Positions 27,994 through 38,863 of a stretch of 64,000 nt of DNA are shown one piece after another. This stretch comes from Candidatus Brevefilum sp. Lineage in GTDB: Bacteria > Chloroflexota > Anaerolineae > Anaerolineales > Anaerolineaceae. The stretch spans positions 1 to 64,000 of the forward strand of contig JARGGB010000006.1 of NCBI GenBank assembly GCA_029210815.1. Reading direction: 5' to 3'. The stretch's first letter is position 1. Each line of letters opens with the position of its first letter. The translations under genes were made by a program, and so were the position numbers. The notes below the pieces were generated by a model. It ran no database searches, had not been told where the DNA came from, and saw nothing but the letters and a program-made list of their open reading frames with translations.

Positions 27994-30876
27994 ATGAGTG
28001 ATGATAATATGGTTATTGAAAAAAGGATAAACGAAGACGTTTCTGTCTCATGGCATGCTATGTCAAGCACGGATGTCGTTGAAGAACTTGAAACACGTCC
28101 TGAAAATGGATTGACCAGCGAAGAGGTCGAAAAACGGCGAGAAAAATATGGCTTCAACGAATTGCAGGAAGCACCGCCGACAACTTTCTTGGAACTGCTC
28201 TGGGCGCAAATCAACAGCTTTGTAATTTATATGCTGTTGGGTGCTGCGATCATATCCGCTTTACTCGGCGACTATACCGAAGCCATAGCGATTATGGCGA
28301 TCGTTGTGCTCAATGCAGTTATGGGGATCATCCAGGAAAGCCGGGCTGAAGCTGCCCTGGCTGCACTAAAAAAGTTGGCAGCACCGGAGGCATCCGTCTT
28401 GCGTGATGGTCACCGTGTTTCAGTGCCCACCGCAGAACTGGTTCCGGGCGATATTGTCTTTTTAGAAGCGGGAAATTACATCCCTGCGGATATTCGTTTA
28501 TTGGAAGCTGTAAATCTACGAATTGATGAAGCATCCCTGACAGGTGAATCGGTACCGGTTGAAAAGAACGCACAATCCCGTTTAGAAAAGGATATTCCCC
28601 TTGGCGACCGGAAAAACACAGCATTTAGCGGCACTCTTGTCAATTATGGGCGCGGTAAAGGTGTGGTAGTCAGCACGGGCATGAACACACAGCTCGGCAT
28701 GATTGCAACGATGCTGCAGCAGGTGGAAGATGAGCAAACCCCTTTGCAGCAAAGATTAGATCAGTTAGGAAAAGTGCTTGGATGGGGTTCTCTGATTGTC
28801 TGCGGATTGGTCTTTGTCATTGGCGTTGTTCGTTATGCCTTGCAGCCTGGCGCAGCGAACTTCTTCAGCGCTGAGGCTTTAGAAACTTATACCGAATTGT
28901 TTATGGTTGCCGTCTCATTAGCAATTGCAGCAGTTCCCGAAGGATTGCCGGCAGTTGTAACGATCAGCTTGGCATTGGGTATGCGAGAAATGGTTAGGCG
29001 ACATGCACTGATCCGGAAGCTTTCTTCCGTTGAAACCCTCGGTTCTGCAACGGTTATTTGTTCTGATAAAACCGGTACGCTGACCCAGAACGAGATGACG
29101 GTCACACGTATTTGGACGGACGGAAGTTTTGTGGGGGTCACCGGCAGCGGTTACACACCCAAAGGCGATTTTACAAACAATGGGAAGGTAATTTCCCTGA
29201 ACGATTTCCCGGCAGTCAAAACAGCCTTATGGATTGGGTCTTTAAATAATGATGCCCAGCTTGAACCCTCAGGAGAACAGGCTGGCCAGGAAACCTACCG
29301 GATGATTGGCGACCCGACTGAAGGATCAATCCTGGTGGCAGCCCATAAAGCCGGATGTTCTGCTCGGGCAATCAACACGGGTTTCCCAAGAGAACAAGAA
29401 ATTCCTTTTGACTCTGTTCGTAAGCGCATGGTCACCATTCACTCAGTCCAAGAATCAGAAGGGGAGTGTCTTTCACCTTTGGGTCAGGCGGACGAAGAAA
29501 AAAGAGATTGGTACATTGTCACAATTAAAGGTGCCCCAGATGTTGTGCTCGATCTTTGCTCCGACATGCAGACGATTAATAATGGCAATGTAGACTTAAC
29601 AGAAGATCGGCGCAATCAAATTCTGGCTGCCAATGACGAAATGACAGGAGATGCCTTGCGGGTATTGGGCGTTGCCTACCGAATGGTGCCAGTTTTGCCT
29701 GATGAAATTAACAGTGATGATTTGGAAAAAGACCTGACTTTTGTTGGCTTGATTGGGATGATTGACCCGGCGAGAACAGAGGTGAGTGATGCCCTCAATA
29801 CAGCTCGGGATGCCGGCATTAGAACGATTATGATTACGGGTGATTATCCCAACACAGCTCGTGCAATTGCTGAGGAAATTGGCTTATTGCGATCCGGTCG
29901 AAAAGTTATGACGGGGTCAGAACTTAATCACCTTTCGGATGATGAAATGATCACAAATGTTTTGGAAACTGACGTGTATGCTCGGGTCAGCCCAGAACAT
30001 AAAATGCGCATTGTCGATGCTTTACGCGCTAACCAGGAAGTGGTTGCCATGACGGGGGATGGCGTTAACGATGCCCCTGCAATCAAACGGGCTGACATTG
30101 GTGTTGCCATGGGGATCACAGGTACGGATGTCGCAAAAGGTACCGCAGACATGGTCCTGACTGATGACAACTATGCCAGTATTGTTTCTGCTGTTGAACA
30201 GGGTCGTGTTATTTACAGCAATATTCGGAAATTTGTCTATTATCTGCTGTCCTGTAACGCGGCTGAAATAATGATCATCTTCTTGGCGACCTTGTTTGGC
30301 TGGCCGATACCCCTAACTGCGATTCAGTTACTGTGGTTGAACCTGGTCACGGATGGCGCCCCTGCTTTAGCTCTGGGTACGGAACCGGGTGACCCGGACA
30401 TCATGGATCGTCCGCCGCGACCATCACAGGAGCCAATCATCAATAAATATATGCTGATTGGTATTGTGGTTCAAACAATTGCAATCACTGCTGTTACCCT
30501 GGGCGCGTTTGCAATCGGTCGTTTTATTGATCCAGAAAACATCGAATTCGCTGAAACAATGGCTTTCGTCACCCTTAGCATTTCGGAGTTGTTCCGGGCA
30601 TACACAGCTCGATCGGAATTCTATCCCTTACTAAAAATTGGTTTATTTAAGAATAAATTGATGAATTGGGCAGTTTTAGGCTCACTGGTGTTGATCATGC
30701 TTGTGATTTATGTCCCCTTCTTGCAGCCTATCTTCAATACTGCGCCTTTGGGATTGGAACAATGGCTGGAGATCTTGCCTCTGGTGTTAATCCCTTCTGT
30801 TGCTGCTGAATTGACCAAGAATTCCATTCGTAAAATGATGGCAAAAGATAATCGTTTGGAAACAGAACTAGTTTAA
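27994..30876 (+). CDS. Type II P-type cation ATPase (Ca2+-ATPase-like)
   Basis: A 960-residue membrane pump. The actuator domain has [12 protein letters not shown]; the phosphorylation site is Asp358 in DKTGTLT; the hinge has [18 protein letters not shown]. In M4, PEGLP (315-319) includes the cation-binding Glu, M5 has NAAE, and M6 has NLVTDGAP; Asn, Thr and Asp of NLVTD match SERCA-type calcium ligands, so Ca2+ (or Mn2+) export is likely. Ten membrane segments fit the C-terminal layout. It has its own leader with a terminator-like hairpin and is followed 236 bp later by a paralogue. Ion specificity is inferred. Confidence 0.88.
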
Positions 30877-34453: not shown

Positions 34454-35461
34454 ATGATGAAAAAAATTCGTATAGCAGGTTTCTTATCTGTGTTAGCTCT
34501 AGTCTTTATATTGGCAGCATGTGCGCCAGCGGTCACTGAAACGGCAGCACCCGTTGAGGAGACAGCAGCACCTGCAGAACCAGAGGAACCCACAGCTGAA
34601 CCGACGGTGGCAGCGGAGCCAACTTCTACTGAAACGCCCACTGAGGCAGCACCGATTACCCAAGAAGTAGGATTTAAACCCAACACCTTGGTTGGCGGTT
34701 CTGTTGAGGTCGAGCTTTCCGGGACGAATGTACGCTGGATCTTGCCAGGTCCACGTGAGCTAGATCCCGACATTTTTGGGACCCCAGACCAGCCACTGGG
34801 TTTTGAGCCCGATGTAGGTGTACCTCTTGAAGCCCGATTAACCAATGAGGACGGCACAGCCTACACAACCACCGCAGGTCCGACCCCCTTCTCAGACAAT
34901 TTTGCTGATATTGAAGGCAGTTTTGATCTCTCGGTAGTTGACGTGACAGCCTTAGACGGTATGGAAAGCCAGGATCAGGTCAGCTTAACGACCTCCTTTG
35001 TTGGTCCAAACGGGAAAGAATATTCCATTACGGTCGATCGAGTCATCCCGGTGGGTCCTGACCATCCCTTCTTGGGTGGTGTGGGTACCAACTTTATTCA
35101 ACACGGCGCTACTGGTATAGGAACCAAGCTGTCACCGCAGGTATTCAGCTATGTCGCCTTCTGGGGCATTGGTGAACTTTCAGTTGATGGCGAAGTGGTC
35201 GCTTCGAACCGGGTCGTCCACGGGATGCTGACCAACGTTGTGCGAAATGAAAATGGGGAACTGGTCTTCGATGAAGAGGTAGACAACAACAAAGTTCAAT
35301 TCCATTTGATGCTCCCCAACACTGAGGTGACTCCCGATGGTCCGCAGGAAAGTCCTGTCCCGACCGGCTTTGAACTGCCGAACGGCGCAGAGCAGCCATT
35401 CTTACACATTATGTTCGACGATGTTGATGTGGCTCCTGCCATTTTATTAAACAATGAGTAA
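34454..35461 (+). CDS. Secreted lipoprotein, function unknown
   Basis: A 335-residue protein with a signal peptide and lipobox ILAAC, then a Thr/Glu/Pro/Ala-rich linker (about 25-70) and a globular part of about 260 residues. The globular region contains two His-bearing blocks, RVVHGMLTNVVRN and KVQFHLMLPNTEV, and the phrase WILPGPRELDPDIFG. I do not recognise the family. The linker style is common in Chloroflexota surface lipoproteins. ATG 34454 is preferred over 34448 because AGGAG (34441-34445) is 8 nt away rather than 2. It is the last + gene before the orientation switch. Confidence 0.65.
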   Translation: MMKKIRIAGFLSVLALVFILAACAPAVTETAAPVEETAAPAEPEEPTAEPTVAAEPTSTETPTEAAPITQEVGFKPNTLVGGSVEVELSGTNVRWILPGPRELDPDIFGTPDQPLGFEPDVGVPLEARLTNEDGTAYTTTAGPTPFSDNFADIEGSFDLSVVDVTALDGMESQDQVSLTTSFVGPNGKEYSITVDRVIPVGPDHPFLGGVGTNFIQHGATGIGTKLSPQVFSYVAFWGIGELSVDGEVVASNRVVHGMLTNVVRNENGELVFDEEVDNNKVQFHLMLPNTEVTPDGPQESPVPTGFELPNGAEQPFLHIMFDDVDVAPAILLNNE

Positions 35462-35491: not shown

Positions 35492-35527
35492 TTAGGGGCT
35501 GTCTTGAAAATTAGAGGCAGCCCCTAA
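35492..35527 (+). terminator. Terminator of the lipoprotein gene
   Basis: TTAGGGGCTGTC (35492-35503) pairs with GGCAGCCCCTAA (35516-35527), one G-T wobble, 12-nt loop, followed by CTTCTGTT. Confidence 0.6.
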
Positions 35528-35584
35528 CTTCTGTTAATCTTCAAAATTACTGTCCATTTGTTTCGAAAAAAAAGCAAAGGTACC

Positions 35585-35684
35585 TTTTCAACAGCGCTTT
35601 CCACAGAAAACAGCGACTTCTCCACAGCTCTTATACAGAGGATTGATGTAAATGGGGAGAAAATGTGGATAAATTTGTGGAGAA
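35585..35684. promoter_or_regulatory. Cluster of six DnaA-box-like sites
   Basis: Compared with TTATCCACA: TTTTCAACA 35585-35593 (7/9), CTTTCCACA 35597-35605 (7/9), TTCTCCACA 35618-35626 (8/9) and TTATACAGA 35631-35639 (7/9) on the + strand; TGTGGATAA 35664-35672 (perfect on the minus strand) and TGTGGAGAA 35676-35684 (8/9, minus). Members are paired with start-to-start distances of 12, 13 and 12 bp. The cluster sits between convergent genes where gene orientation flips. It could be an origin-like, titration or other DnaA-binding element; function is inferred only. Confidence 0.5.
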
Positions 35685-35731
35685 GGTAGCAAATTAGATC
35701 ATCACATCCTAATTCCTTTAGACATATCCGT

Positions 35732-37330
35732 TTAGTTTTGCAACACACTGATCCCGATATTATCAGCGTGGTCACTGATTCGCTCGAGGAGGCGTAAGGT
35801 TTCTGTGTAGAGCACATCCACCTTTGGTTTGCAGCAGCCAGTTTCTAGCCTTTGGATATGGTTCTGGCGGGCGATTAAGTATGTATTATCGAATTCACTT
35901 TCAATGCAGCACACTTCTTTGGCGAGGTCATGGTCTTTATTTTGAAATGCTTGCAGTGATAAAGAATATGTCCGATGCGCTTCCTGCCACAATTGGTTAA
36001 ATTCTGTTACAGCTTCATCTGAAAACGGAATGTCGGTCATTGCCCTGTCCTGGGCGAACTGTGCAATATCCTCAGCCATATCGCCCACGCGTTCAATATC
36101 AACCAATAAATTCTTTATTTGAAAGCTGCGATTTTGCTGCGCATTGCTTAATGTTGAGCGCATCAGGGTGTTGATAAATCTTTCAAGCTCCCTTGAGACC
36201 GGGTCAACGATGTCATCCTCCAAGCGCAAGACACGTTCAGCCTTTGACATGTCTTTTTCCAATAGCGCCTGGCAGCTTAATGTGATCATTTCACTGGTGA
36301 CTTCTCCCAGACGTAGCAGTTCCCGGCTTGCTTCATTAATGGCTACAGACGGCACAGCATATTGGTTTTCATCAATATATTTCGTGGGTTTTTCTTTTTC
36401 CTTCTGAGGGTCTACAGGAGCAAGACTTTTCGCGATTGAGGCGATTTGTTTTGTAAATGGAAACAGGATGACGCTGACTGCCACATTGAAAATGGAGTGT
36501 GCATTTGCGATTTGCCGGGCTAATATCCCTGAAGTTCCCTGAATAAGGTTGGCAAACGGCGTGATAAAGGGGAGAAAGATCAATACCCCGGAGATATTGA
36601 TGATGATTTGTGCAATAGAGGCTTGCCGGGCTGTTGGCGACAGTTTCAGAGAAGCAATTAATCCTGTAATACAGGTGCCAATGTTTGCACCCAGGATGAT
36701 CCCGATGGCACCTCTTAAAGTTATCGCCTGGCTGAGTCCCATGGCAACAACCAGGCTGGAAACAGCTGAACTGCTTTGAGTGACGCCTGTAAGAACTGTG
36801 CCCGCCAGGACCCCAAGCCAGGTACTTTTTCCCAGGAGGAGGGCATTTGCTATCCAGGTGATTTCAATAAGCGAATCGAGGGCTGAAGACATATACCCCA
36901 TCCCAACAAAGATGATTCCCAACCCCATCAGGATTTCGCCAAACTTCTTCCAGTCGCGTTTTGGAAAAAATTCGAGAAAAATCAAACCTGCAATGATCAA
37001 AATCAGACGGAAGTCACCGACATGGAAGGACACAATTTGGGTGGTCATTGTGGTGCCGATTTCCTGACCAAGCATCACACTGATGGCTTGCTCAACGGTC
37101 ATCAGGTTCGCATTGATCAGGCCGATCATGGTAACCATGATCAGGCTGCTGCTCTGAACCAGTGCGGTTGCCACAGAGCCAAAAACAGCACTTTTCACAC
37201 GGTTATTGGTGACTTTATCCAGCCATTTTTGGATTTGATCGCCTGCTAATTTTTCGATACCAGAACTCAGCATATTAATGCCGAATAAAAATAATGCCAG
37301 TCCTCCCAATATTTGAACGAGACCTACCAT
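35732..37330 (-). CDS. Na/Pi cotransporter family protein with PhoU-like domain
   Basis: A 532-residue inner-membrane protein. The N-terminal two thirds contain two inverted membrane repeats, each with the signature QSSS (ALVQSSSLIMVTMIG and VTQSSSAVSSLVVAMG) of SLC34/NptA-type sodium-phosphate carriers. The C-terminal part (about 330-530) is helical and PhoU-like. It should import or balance phosphate using a Na+ gradient. ATG 37330 is chosen because AGGAGG lies 4 nt upstream; the longer frame to 37351 is unlikely. A low-affinity phosphate route fits the PhoR/PhoB/PstB genes further right. Confidence 0.87.
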   Translation of the reverse strand: MVGLVQILGGLALFLFGINMLSSGIEKLAGDQIQKWLDKVTNNRVKSAVFGSVATALVQSSSLIMVTMIGLINANLMTVEQAISVMLGQEIGTTMTTQIVSFHVGDFRLILIIAGLIFLEFFPKRDWKKFGEILMGLGIIFVGMGYMSSALDSLIEITWIANALLLGKSTWLGVLAGTVLTGVTQSSSAVSSLVVAMGLSQAITLRGAIGIILGANIGTCITGLIASLKLSPTARQASIAQIIINISGVLIFLPFITPFANLIQGTSGILARQIANAHSIFNVAVSVILFPFTKQIASIAKSLAPVDPQKEKEKPTKYIDENQYAVPSVAINEASRELLRLGEVTSEMITLSCQALLEKDMSKAERVLRLEDDIVDPVSRELERFINTLMRSTLSNAQQNRSFQIKNLLVDIERVGDMAEDIAQFAQDRAMTDIPFSDEAVTEFNQLWQEAHRTYSLSLQAFQNKDHDLAKEVCCIESEFDNTYLIARQNHIQRLETGCCKPKVDVLYTETLRLLERISDHADNIGISVLQN

Positions 37331-37386
37331 GAACCCTCCTGGAAGGAACAAAACGGTGTTTATTTACGCATCAATCATATCATGAG

Positions 37387-37811: not shown

Positions 37812-38450
37812 ATGGATAAATTTATTGCAGTTGCAGGAAATATTGGCGTTGGGAAATCAACATTGGTGAAATTACTCAGCGAAAATCTGGGGTGGACACC
37901 CTTCTTTGAACCTGTAACTGAAAACCCTTACCTGGCTGATTTTTATGAGGACATGCAAGCCTGGGGTTTCCATTCACAAATTTATTTCCTGATGCGCCGC
38001 TTGCGAATTCATCGCAAGTTAATGGATATGAAGGGCTCTGTTATCCAGGATCGCAGCGTTTATGAGGATGCAGAGATCTTTGCCCATAATCTCTTTTTGC
38101 AGAAAGCGATCAACCAGCGAGATTACGCAACCTACCAGGAGCTGTACCGGGTTTTGGTTGAGTTTCTCCCCCCGCCCGACCTGGTGATCTACCTCAGGGC
38201 ATCGGTGTCAACCCTTGTCAGCCGAATTTCAAAGCGGAATCGGGATTATGAACGCACCATCAGCCCTGACTACCTTGCTGATCTCAACCAGCTTTATGAG
38301 GATTGGGTGGCTCACTTCGACCTTTGCCCGGTATTGACCGTACCATGCGACAACCTGGATTATGTAGCGAAACCACAGCATTTATCTTTAATTGCAGACA
38401 AAGTCAAGGATATTTTAGTTGGAAAAGATGAAGTGCGATTTGACGTCTGA
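37812..38450 (+). CDS. Deoxynucleoside kinase
   Basis: A 212-residue kinase of the deoxyadenosine/deoxyguanosine kinase family, salvaging deoxynucleosides to monophosphates. P-loop GNIGVGKST is at 9-17; the substrate-binding FEPVTENPYLADFYED block, the DRS motif in QDRSVYEDAEIF and the LID-like RISKRNRDYER are present. It is one of only three + strand genes in the right half. AAGGAG occurs 11-12 nt before the ATG. Nucleoside specificity cannot be read. Confidence 0.9.
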   Translation: MDKFIAVAGNIGVGKSTLVKLLSENLGWTPFFEPVTENPYLADFYEDMQAWGFHSQIYFLMRRLRIHRKLMDMKGSVIQDRSVYEDAEIFAHNLFLQKAINQRDYATYQELYRVLVEFLPPPDLVIYLRASVSTLVSRISKRNRDYERTISPDYLADLNQLYEDWVAHFDLCPVLTVPCDNLDYVAKPQHLSLIADKVKDILVGKDEVRFDV

Positions 38451-38557: not shown

Positions 38558-38863
38558 TTATTCCGATAGGACATCCTTTGCTGCATCTTGTGCTGGCTCC
38601 TCACCTCTTGGTGTGATTGTCAGCTTGATCGCGGTGCGAACTTTGCCGTCGATGTCCACATCAACGAATTCTGGTACGCAAACGATATCAATACCGTCAT
38701 TGACCAGGTAACCCTTGGCGAGGATCACGGCTTTCACCGCTTGATTTACAGCACCAGCACCGATCGATTGGACTTCCGCCAAACGATGCTCACGCATGAC
38801 ACCTGCGATTGCCCCTGCTACGGCAGCGGTGCGGGAGTTTGCCGAAACTTTTATGATGTTCAT
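38558..38863 (-). CDS. spoVS: SpoVS-like protein
   Basis: A 101-residue protein with the SpoVS pattern: KVSANSRTAAVAGAIAGVMRE, the IGAGAVNQAVKAVILAKGYL core and VDIDGKVRTAIKLTITPR. SpoVS proteins have an Alba-like fold and are found in many bacteria that do not sporulate, including Chloroflexota and Deinococcota; a nucleic-acid-binding role is often assumed. GGGAG lies 6-7 nt before the ATG. A charged tail follows residue 85. It stands alone between convergent dNK and an upstream 186-bp gap. Confidence 0.9.
   Translation of the reverse strand: MNIIKVSANSRTAAVAGAIAGVMREHRLAEVQSIGAGAVNQAVKAVILAKGYLVNDGIDIVCVPEFVDVDIDGKVRTAIKLTITPRGEEPAQDAAKDVLSE

Follow-up and report, generated by a model that had tools for sequence, protein, structure and literature searches.

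What is a dense group of likely binding sites for the bacterial replication initiator DnaA doing in a gap between two convergent genes? The group lies at positions 35585-35684 of the window, by which we mean the whole stretch of 64,000 nucleotides from Candidatus Brevefilum sp. that was analysed, between a left gene ending at 35461 (+) and a right gene ending at 35732 (-). The first-pass annotation had described six boxes here and had proposed a chromosomal origin, a DnaA titration site or a terminus-proximal element. Its convergent gap, its start spacings of 12, 13 and 12 bp and the facing orientation of the outer pairs were borne out by the gene ends, the box coordinates and the box strands. 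The matches within 100 bp and the perfect box were likewise recovered, but a seventh box (35653, -, 7/9) had been overlooked. The seven 9-mers, each matching TTATCCACA at 7-9 of 9 positions, and the element that they form are as follows.

35585..35593, + strand: extra box TTTTCAACA (7/9), outside the shared set, with no box in that register in relatives
35597..35605, + strand: box CTTTCCACA (7/9)
35618..35626, + strand: box TTCTCCACA (8/9)
35631..35639, + strand: weak box TTATACAGA (7/9)
35653..35661, - strand: weak box TTCTCCCCA (7/9)
35664..35672, - strand: perfect box TTATCCACA (9/9)
35676..35684, - strand: box TTCTCCACA (8/9)
35597..35684, + strand: six-slot DnaA-box element, with + boxes at -67, -46 and -33 and - boxes at -11, 0 and +12 relative to 35664

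The recurring slots (35597, 35618, 35631, 35653, 35664 and 35676 in the window copy) form two three-box arms that face each other. With box-score weights and a 110-bp span of our own choosing, the cluster scored 11 and the next independent place in the window scored 5, in agreement with the earlier statement that no other cluster was noticed in the window. None of 60 windows simulated with a third-order Markov model reached the cluster's score, and at least three boxes of 8/9 or better per 100 bp were found in 0/60 such windows. The cluster in 35585-35684 is genuine.

Opposite boxes of the element (35617-35626 and 35676-35685 in the window; element of locus L049) match each other beyond the box consensus, over 10 bp in the window's genome (G000) and 11 bp in the related genome G012, with a sequence that differs between these two species. 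The inverted copies within the element look as if they were changing together, species by species.

The whole window genome (2.66 Mb in 99 contigs) was scanned for clusters, a check that the first-pass annotation had proposed. Perfect TTATCCACA occurred 51 times, compared with 15 for the reversed control. The direct-pair pattern gave eight rows, two at 36.7 kb of contig C22, two at the cluster and four singles (reversed-pattern control, 4 matches), and the convergent-pair pattern gave six rows, two at the cluster, two on C39 and one each on C2 and C13 (reversed-pattern control, 2 matches). By the patterns used, which overlook looser clusters such as that at C22:7.8 kb, more than one direct pair was present solely at the cluster and at the presumed oriC, and direct and convergent pairs together were present at the cluster alone.

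The looser site (L016 7797-7847, on C22) is a second off-origin cluster, with three same-direction boxes 21 bp apart, 29 kb from oriC and adjoining an apparent ABC ATPase gene. Its counterpart in G012 (C9:182737-182787) also lies 29 kb from oriC, boxes occur about 29 kb from the three-box origin of G010, and in G006 boxes follow seemingly the same gene end, as judged by eye. A match of the 12-bp pair pattern on G010 C15 was rejected as a copy of the element, being this other site about 29 kb from the G010 triple, and matches on G006 C17 and G014 C10 appear, from synteny with C22 and by eye, to be the same site as that on G010 C15.

Among the 16 genomes of this Anaerolineaceae genus, the element was found in six (G000, G012, G002, G003, G013 and G015), in a syntenic place. 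Orthologues of dNK-A, a nearby deoxynucleoside kinase gene, were present in 14 of the 16, with no match in G001 and paralogue-level matches alone in G007. The element was absent from the stretches read of eight dNK-A-bearing genomes (G004, G005, G006, G008, G009, G010, G011 and G014), indicating that it is dispensable or replaceable. A whole-genome search of the 16 genomes with a model of the element gave no seventh full copy among the matches listed, the best other match having an E value of 1.9e-5 (38/95 positions); filters were strict, 103 candidates were scored per genome and weak matches were listed in part. A DNA search with the 201 bp around the cluster in 61 genomes returned the self-match alone. 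The six element-bearing genomes are scattered over several branches of a tree with uneven support, in which G010 sits on a long branch, probably since its best ATPase match is a paralogue; this placement was not relied on. Presence in the genus ancestor followed by repeated loss would be the simpler history.

The genes and features around the cluster that bear on its context are these.

27994..30876, + strand: cation-transporting ATPase, adjoining the element on its left in G002, G003 and G015
35492..35527, + strand: intrinsic-terminator-like hairpin, 3′ of the left gene and outside the element
35732..37351, - strand: Na/Pi cotransporter with PhoU domain, between the element and dNK-A, likewise in G012
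37812..38450, + strand: deoxynucleoside kinase dNK-A
38558..38863, - strand: SpoVS-family protein, between dNK-A and oriC in many relatives

The order ATPase, element, dNK-A was seen in G002, G003 and G015, and in G013, whose contig begins about 100 bases before the element, dNK-A comes next. The element ends 221 (G013), 234 (G002), 184 (G003) and 151 (G015) bases upstream of dNK-A, and in G000 and G012 further genes, the transporter included, lie on both flanks. The 3′ flank of the transporter was rejected as the conserved context, the cluster being present in G012 alone among eight relatives read there; the better conserved context is the ATPase-dNK-A interval.

Relative to the 35664 box, the plus-strand slots lie at -66/-67, -45/-46 and -33 to -35 across copies and the minus-strand slots at -11, 0 and +12. 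Six slots were at 7/9 or better in G000 (three of them no better than 7/9) and five in each other copy. The slot that fell short was -11 in G012, -34 in G013, 0 in G003, and -66 in both G002 and G015, the last of which carries a box at -56 instead. The 35631 slot was 8/9 in G012 and G002, 7/9 in G003 and G015 and 6/9 in G013, the 35653 slot reached at least 7/9 in five of the six copies, and TGTGGA in the 35676 slot was unchanged in all six. By our mapping, the six-copy alignment had 25 invariant columns, every one of them inside the box slots, which occupy 54 of its 96 positions. Identity over the 15 copy pairs was 65-85% in boxes and 16-63% in spacers, a contrast that is partly circular because genomes were picked partly for carrying clusters, and that is small between G000 and G012 (boxes 40/54, spacers 12/19). 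The spacing and a held-out test are stronger evidence. When a two-block model trained on G002, G003, G013 and G015 was run on both strands of the 64-kb window, the window copy ranked first with 55.6 bits and the next independent place had 15.2; the null maximum was 16.3 bits (20 simulations, one strand). In five other held-out tests (13-20 kb each) the element came first every time, with 43-62 bits across the held-out copies.

The window genome encodes one clear DnaA with a C-terminal DNA-binding domain, and matches to DnaA's family on C44 were weak. The dnaA gene is located on C5 (12012-13358), with no strong box cluster around it within the 40 kb read. The best cluster in the stretches read was at C22:36635-36751, where three perfect boxes lie 20 and 21 bp apart and TTATCAACA also occurs in the opposite direction. 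GC skew turns from negative to positive at this cluster (1-kb bins; a local minimum), and beside its boxes there are a box pair, a short GC-rich spacer and CTA-type triplets, forming a DnaA-trio-like repeat. The likely oriC of G000 is thus at C22 36.4-36.8 kb, away from dnaA. Its counterpart in G012 is C9:211.9-212.0 kb, and the cumulative skew minimum of that contig is at about 210 kb (5-kb bins, 260 kb read). At least two CTA triplets were found in 20 of 25 presumed-origin rows, one at the same place in three and none in two, a count that used the best candidate per origin and therefore favours a match; the two rows without triplets (G020 and L170) are one genome entered twice. Many origin triplets are CGA, departing from the strict trio rule.

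The three-box origin adjoins the same 335-residue gene in G010, G013 and G014. This gene at oriC matched no Pfam family at E 0.001; a second deoxynucleoside kinase gene comes after it (L012 8799-10457), and the pair holds its place in many relatives. Among the 80 named loci, the best 80 of 531, 29 had dNK-A followed, on the opposite strand, by the 335-residue gene and the second kinase. Since a box cluster lies inside this arrangement in 25 of these 29 loci, dNK-A is a frequent neighbour of oriC in relatives. In L228 a single row runs from the ATPase through dNK-A, SpoVS, a box cluster and the 335-residue gene to the second kinase. This suggests that oriC in Anaerolineaceae is often between the SpoVS gene and the gene for the 335-residue protein, a neighbourhood from which we propose a presumed oriC place for many members of the family.

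In intact rows dNK-A and the 335-residue gene face each other, whereas in G012 and G009 they are co-oriented and 139 kb and 226 kb apart, respectively. Judging from gene order, dNK-A seems to have been separated from oriC by an inversion, one end of which would lie between SpoVS and oriC. The strand switch and the skew change of the window are close to the presumed inversion boundary, and we infer, as the better reading of the switch, that an old inversion boundary next to the former origin flank is nearby. DnaA boxes upstream of dNK-A were present in five loci (L187, L189, L229, G022 and G021). The arrays are dense and tandem in L187, L189 and L229 (3/29, best 80 of 531) and in G022 (L149), and G021 has a mixed box cluster that matches most of the element model weakly (E 0.0065). 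In L187, L189, L229 and L149 the kinase gene separates the arrays from the origin, a possible bipartite origin enclosing that gene.

The window and G012 C9 are collinear and inverted, with about 90% DNA identity apart from insertions. In the G012 genome, which measures about 3.2 Mb, the element (C9 89664-89759) and oriC are 122 kb apart; in G000 the two are on separate contigs, so that their distance is inferred via G012. As in box clusters of the B. subtilis type, several boxes beyond chance expectation lie off oriC, and by our own criterion they are conserved among relatives (6/16 genus genomes). Our best explanation, with a probability of about 0.5 on the sequence evidence, is a conserved DnaA titration or regulatory site outside oriC, and this is also the one of the three earlier readings that survives best. 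The spacing, box slots that are better kept than spacers in most pairs, the position near oriC and the missing trio-like repeat all fit a site that holds DnaA.

A second replication origin, for which the dense boxes, the intergenic gap and a local 60-bp GC minimum of 0.28 could speak, is very unlikely. As many as 26% of the window's 400-bp bins are at least as AT-rich as that of the cluster, the GC content of the presumed oriC falls to 0.20, and on neither strand of 35501-35760 was any 7/9 box followed by a CTA triplet within 18 bases (spacer 0-15). The skew check proposed in the first-pass annotation put the minimum at the other site, on C22 and at about 210 kb of G012 C9, away from the G012 cluster at 89.7 kb. 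This minimum, the trio-bearing origin on C22 and the lack of triplets at the cluster together disfavour the chromosomal-origin claim. The terminus-proximal element is the least probable reading and was dropped, because synteny places the cluster 122 kb from oriC in the collinear G012, despite the convergent genes and the flattening of GC skew nearby. An RNA hairpin or terminator made by the facing repeats is extremely unlikely: the arms are able to pair, with fold z-scores of -0.7 to -3.7 in the six copies, but species differ in which left slot pairs with the right arm, and a terminator-like hairpin apart from the element lies at 35492-35527. Such readings were dropped on these grounds.

It is possible, though on the whole unlikely, that the element is a DnaA-controlled upstream region of dNK-A that couples dNTP supply to replication, and that the copies in G000 and G012 are relics. 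DnaA is known to control nucleotide genes such as nrdAB, and the position of the element 151-234 bases upstream of dNK-A in G013, G002, G003 and G015 makes a promoter role conceivable there. Because the boxes of G000 and G012 differ almost as much as their spacers, the titration or regulatory reading is weakened and the promoter reading strengthened. However, the element is not at a fixed distance from the start codon (an 83-base spread), and six and five slots are still at 7/9 or better in G000 and G012, although the transporter intervenes in the former and the transporter plus about 14 kb in the latter. That the G012 element outlasted its parting from dNK-A speaks against a role in that genome as a dNK-A promoter and nothing else; given the 40/54 box and 12/19 spacer positions shared with G000, slow decay after the parting is possible. 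We consider it improbable that the element is a displaced subregion of a bipartite origin, now or once active in initiation at oriC. dNK-A and SpoVS are beside oriC in many relatives, and L187, L189, L229 and G022 have arrays upstream of dNK-A plus an origin downstream, with a mixed cluster in G021. Yet an upstream array is present in just 3/29 intact loci (best 80 of 531), the arrays of those four loci are tandem rather than facing and reach at most 18.6 bits against the six-copy model, compared with 43-62 for held-out copies, and the clade of array-bearing loci is separate from the genus.

If the element is a titration or regulatory site, DnaA would bind the two facing three-box arms, and with box starts spaced by about one or two turns of the helix, each arm could load a small DnaA assembly. 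When the nearby origin fires, copies of the site would double early and take up DnaA or change its nucleotide state, and this would limit or tune re-initiation, a role reported also for the DnaA-box clusters of B. subtilis and Streptomyces and for datA of E. coli. The site probably flanked dNK-A beside the ancestral origin until, it seems, an inversion in the genus moved it away. Tentatively, and against the odds, the element may even be one half of an ancestral two-part origin, carried off by inversion and retained as a remote DnaA-control site; if true, rearrangement can turn origin subregions into titration or regulatory loci.

DnaA control outside oriC has been described in a few model bacteria, and work by Smulczyk-Krawczyszyn in 2006, as cited in PMC4585315, reportedly dealt with DnaA-box clusters away from the origin. 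The hallmarks of datA are an IHF site between boxes and DnaA-ATP hydrolysis, and those of DARS are a core box arrangement and nucleotide exchange. No such site is described in the accessible portions of the Chloroflexi and Anaerolinea oriC/DnaA literature searched, mostly non-subscription, nor is the element described in those of the papers searched on box clusters, bipartite or displaced origins and DnaA-trios, again mostly non-subscription. According to the accessible part of the source, bipartite oriC is known in B. subtilis and H. pylori (PMC4285127). Some other Anaerolineaceae are similar in that the kinase and SpoVS genes at the origin lie between two box clusters; unlike in B. subtilis and H. 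pylori, dnaA is not among the spacer genes, and in this genus the kinase side is far from oriC (122 kb in G012). The E. coli loci datA, DARS1 and DARS2 are, in the part of the text available, non-coding and off oriC, with sites and spacing kept and spacers varying (PMC4585315). The element is likewise non-coding and off oriC with its sites and spacing kept, a likeness for which we claim no sequence relationship. The same portion of that source states that in B. subtilis and S. coelicolor DnaA-box clusters near but outside the origin can repress untimely initiation (PMC4585315). With an element of near-fixed spacing, a likely origin and genomes with and without the element, the evolution of titration sites becomes testable in another phylum. 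Like the B. subtilis and Streptomyces clusters, the element comprises several DnaA boxes off the origin proper yet near it; unlike them, it consists of two facing three-box arms in a near-fixed register, in Chloroflexota.
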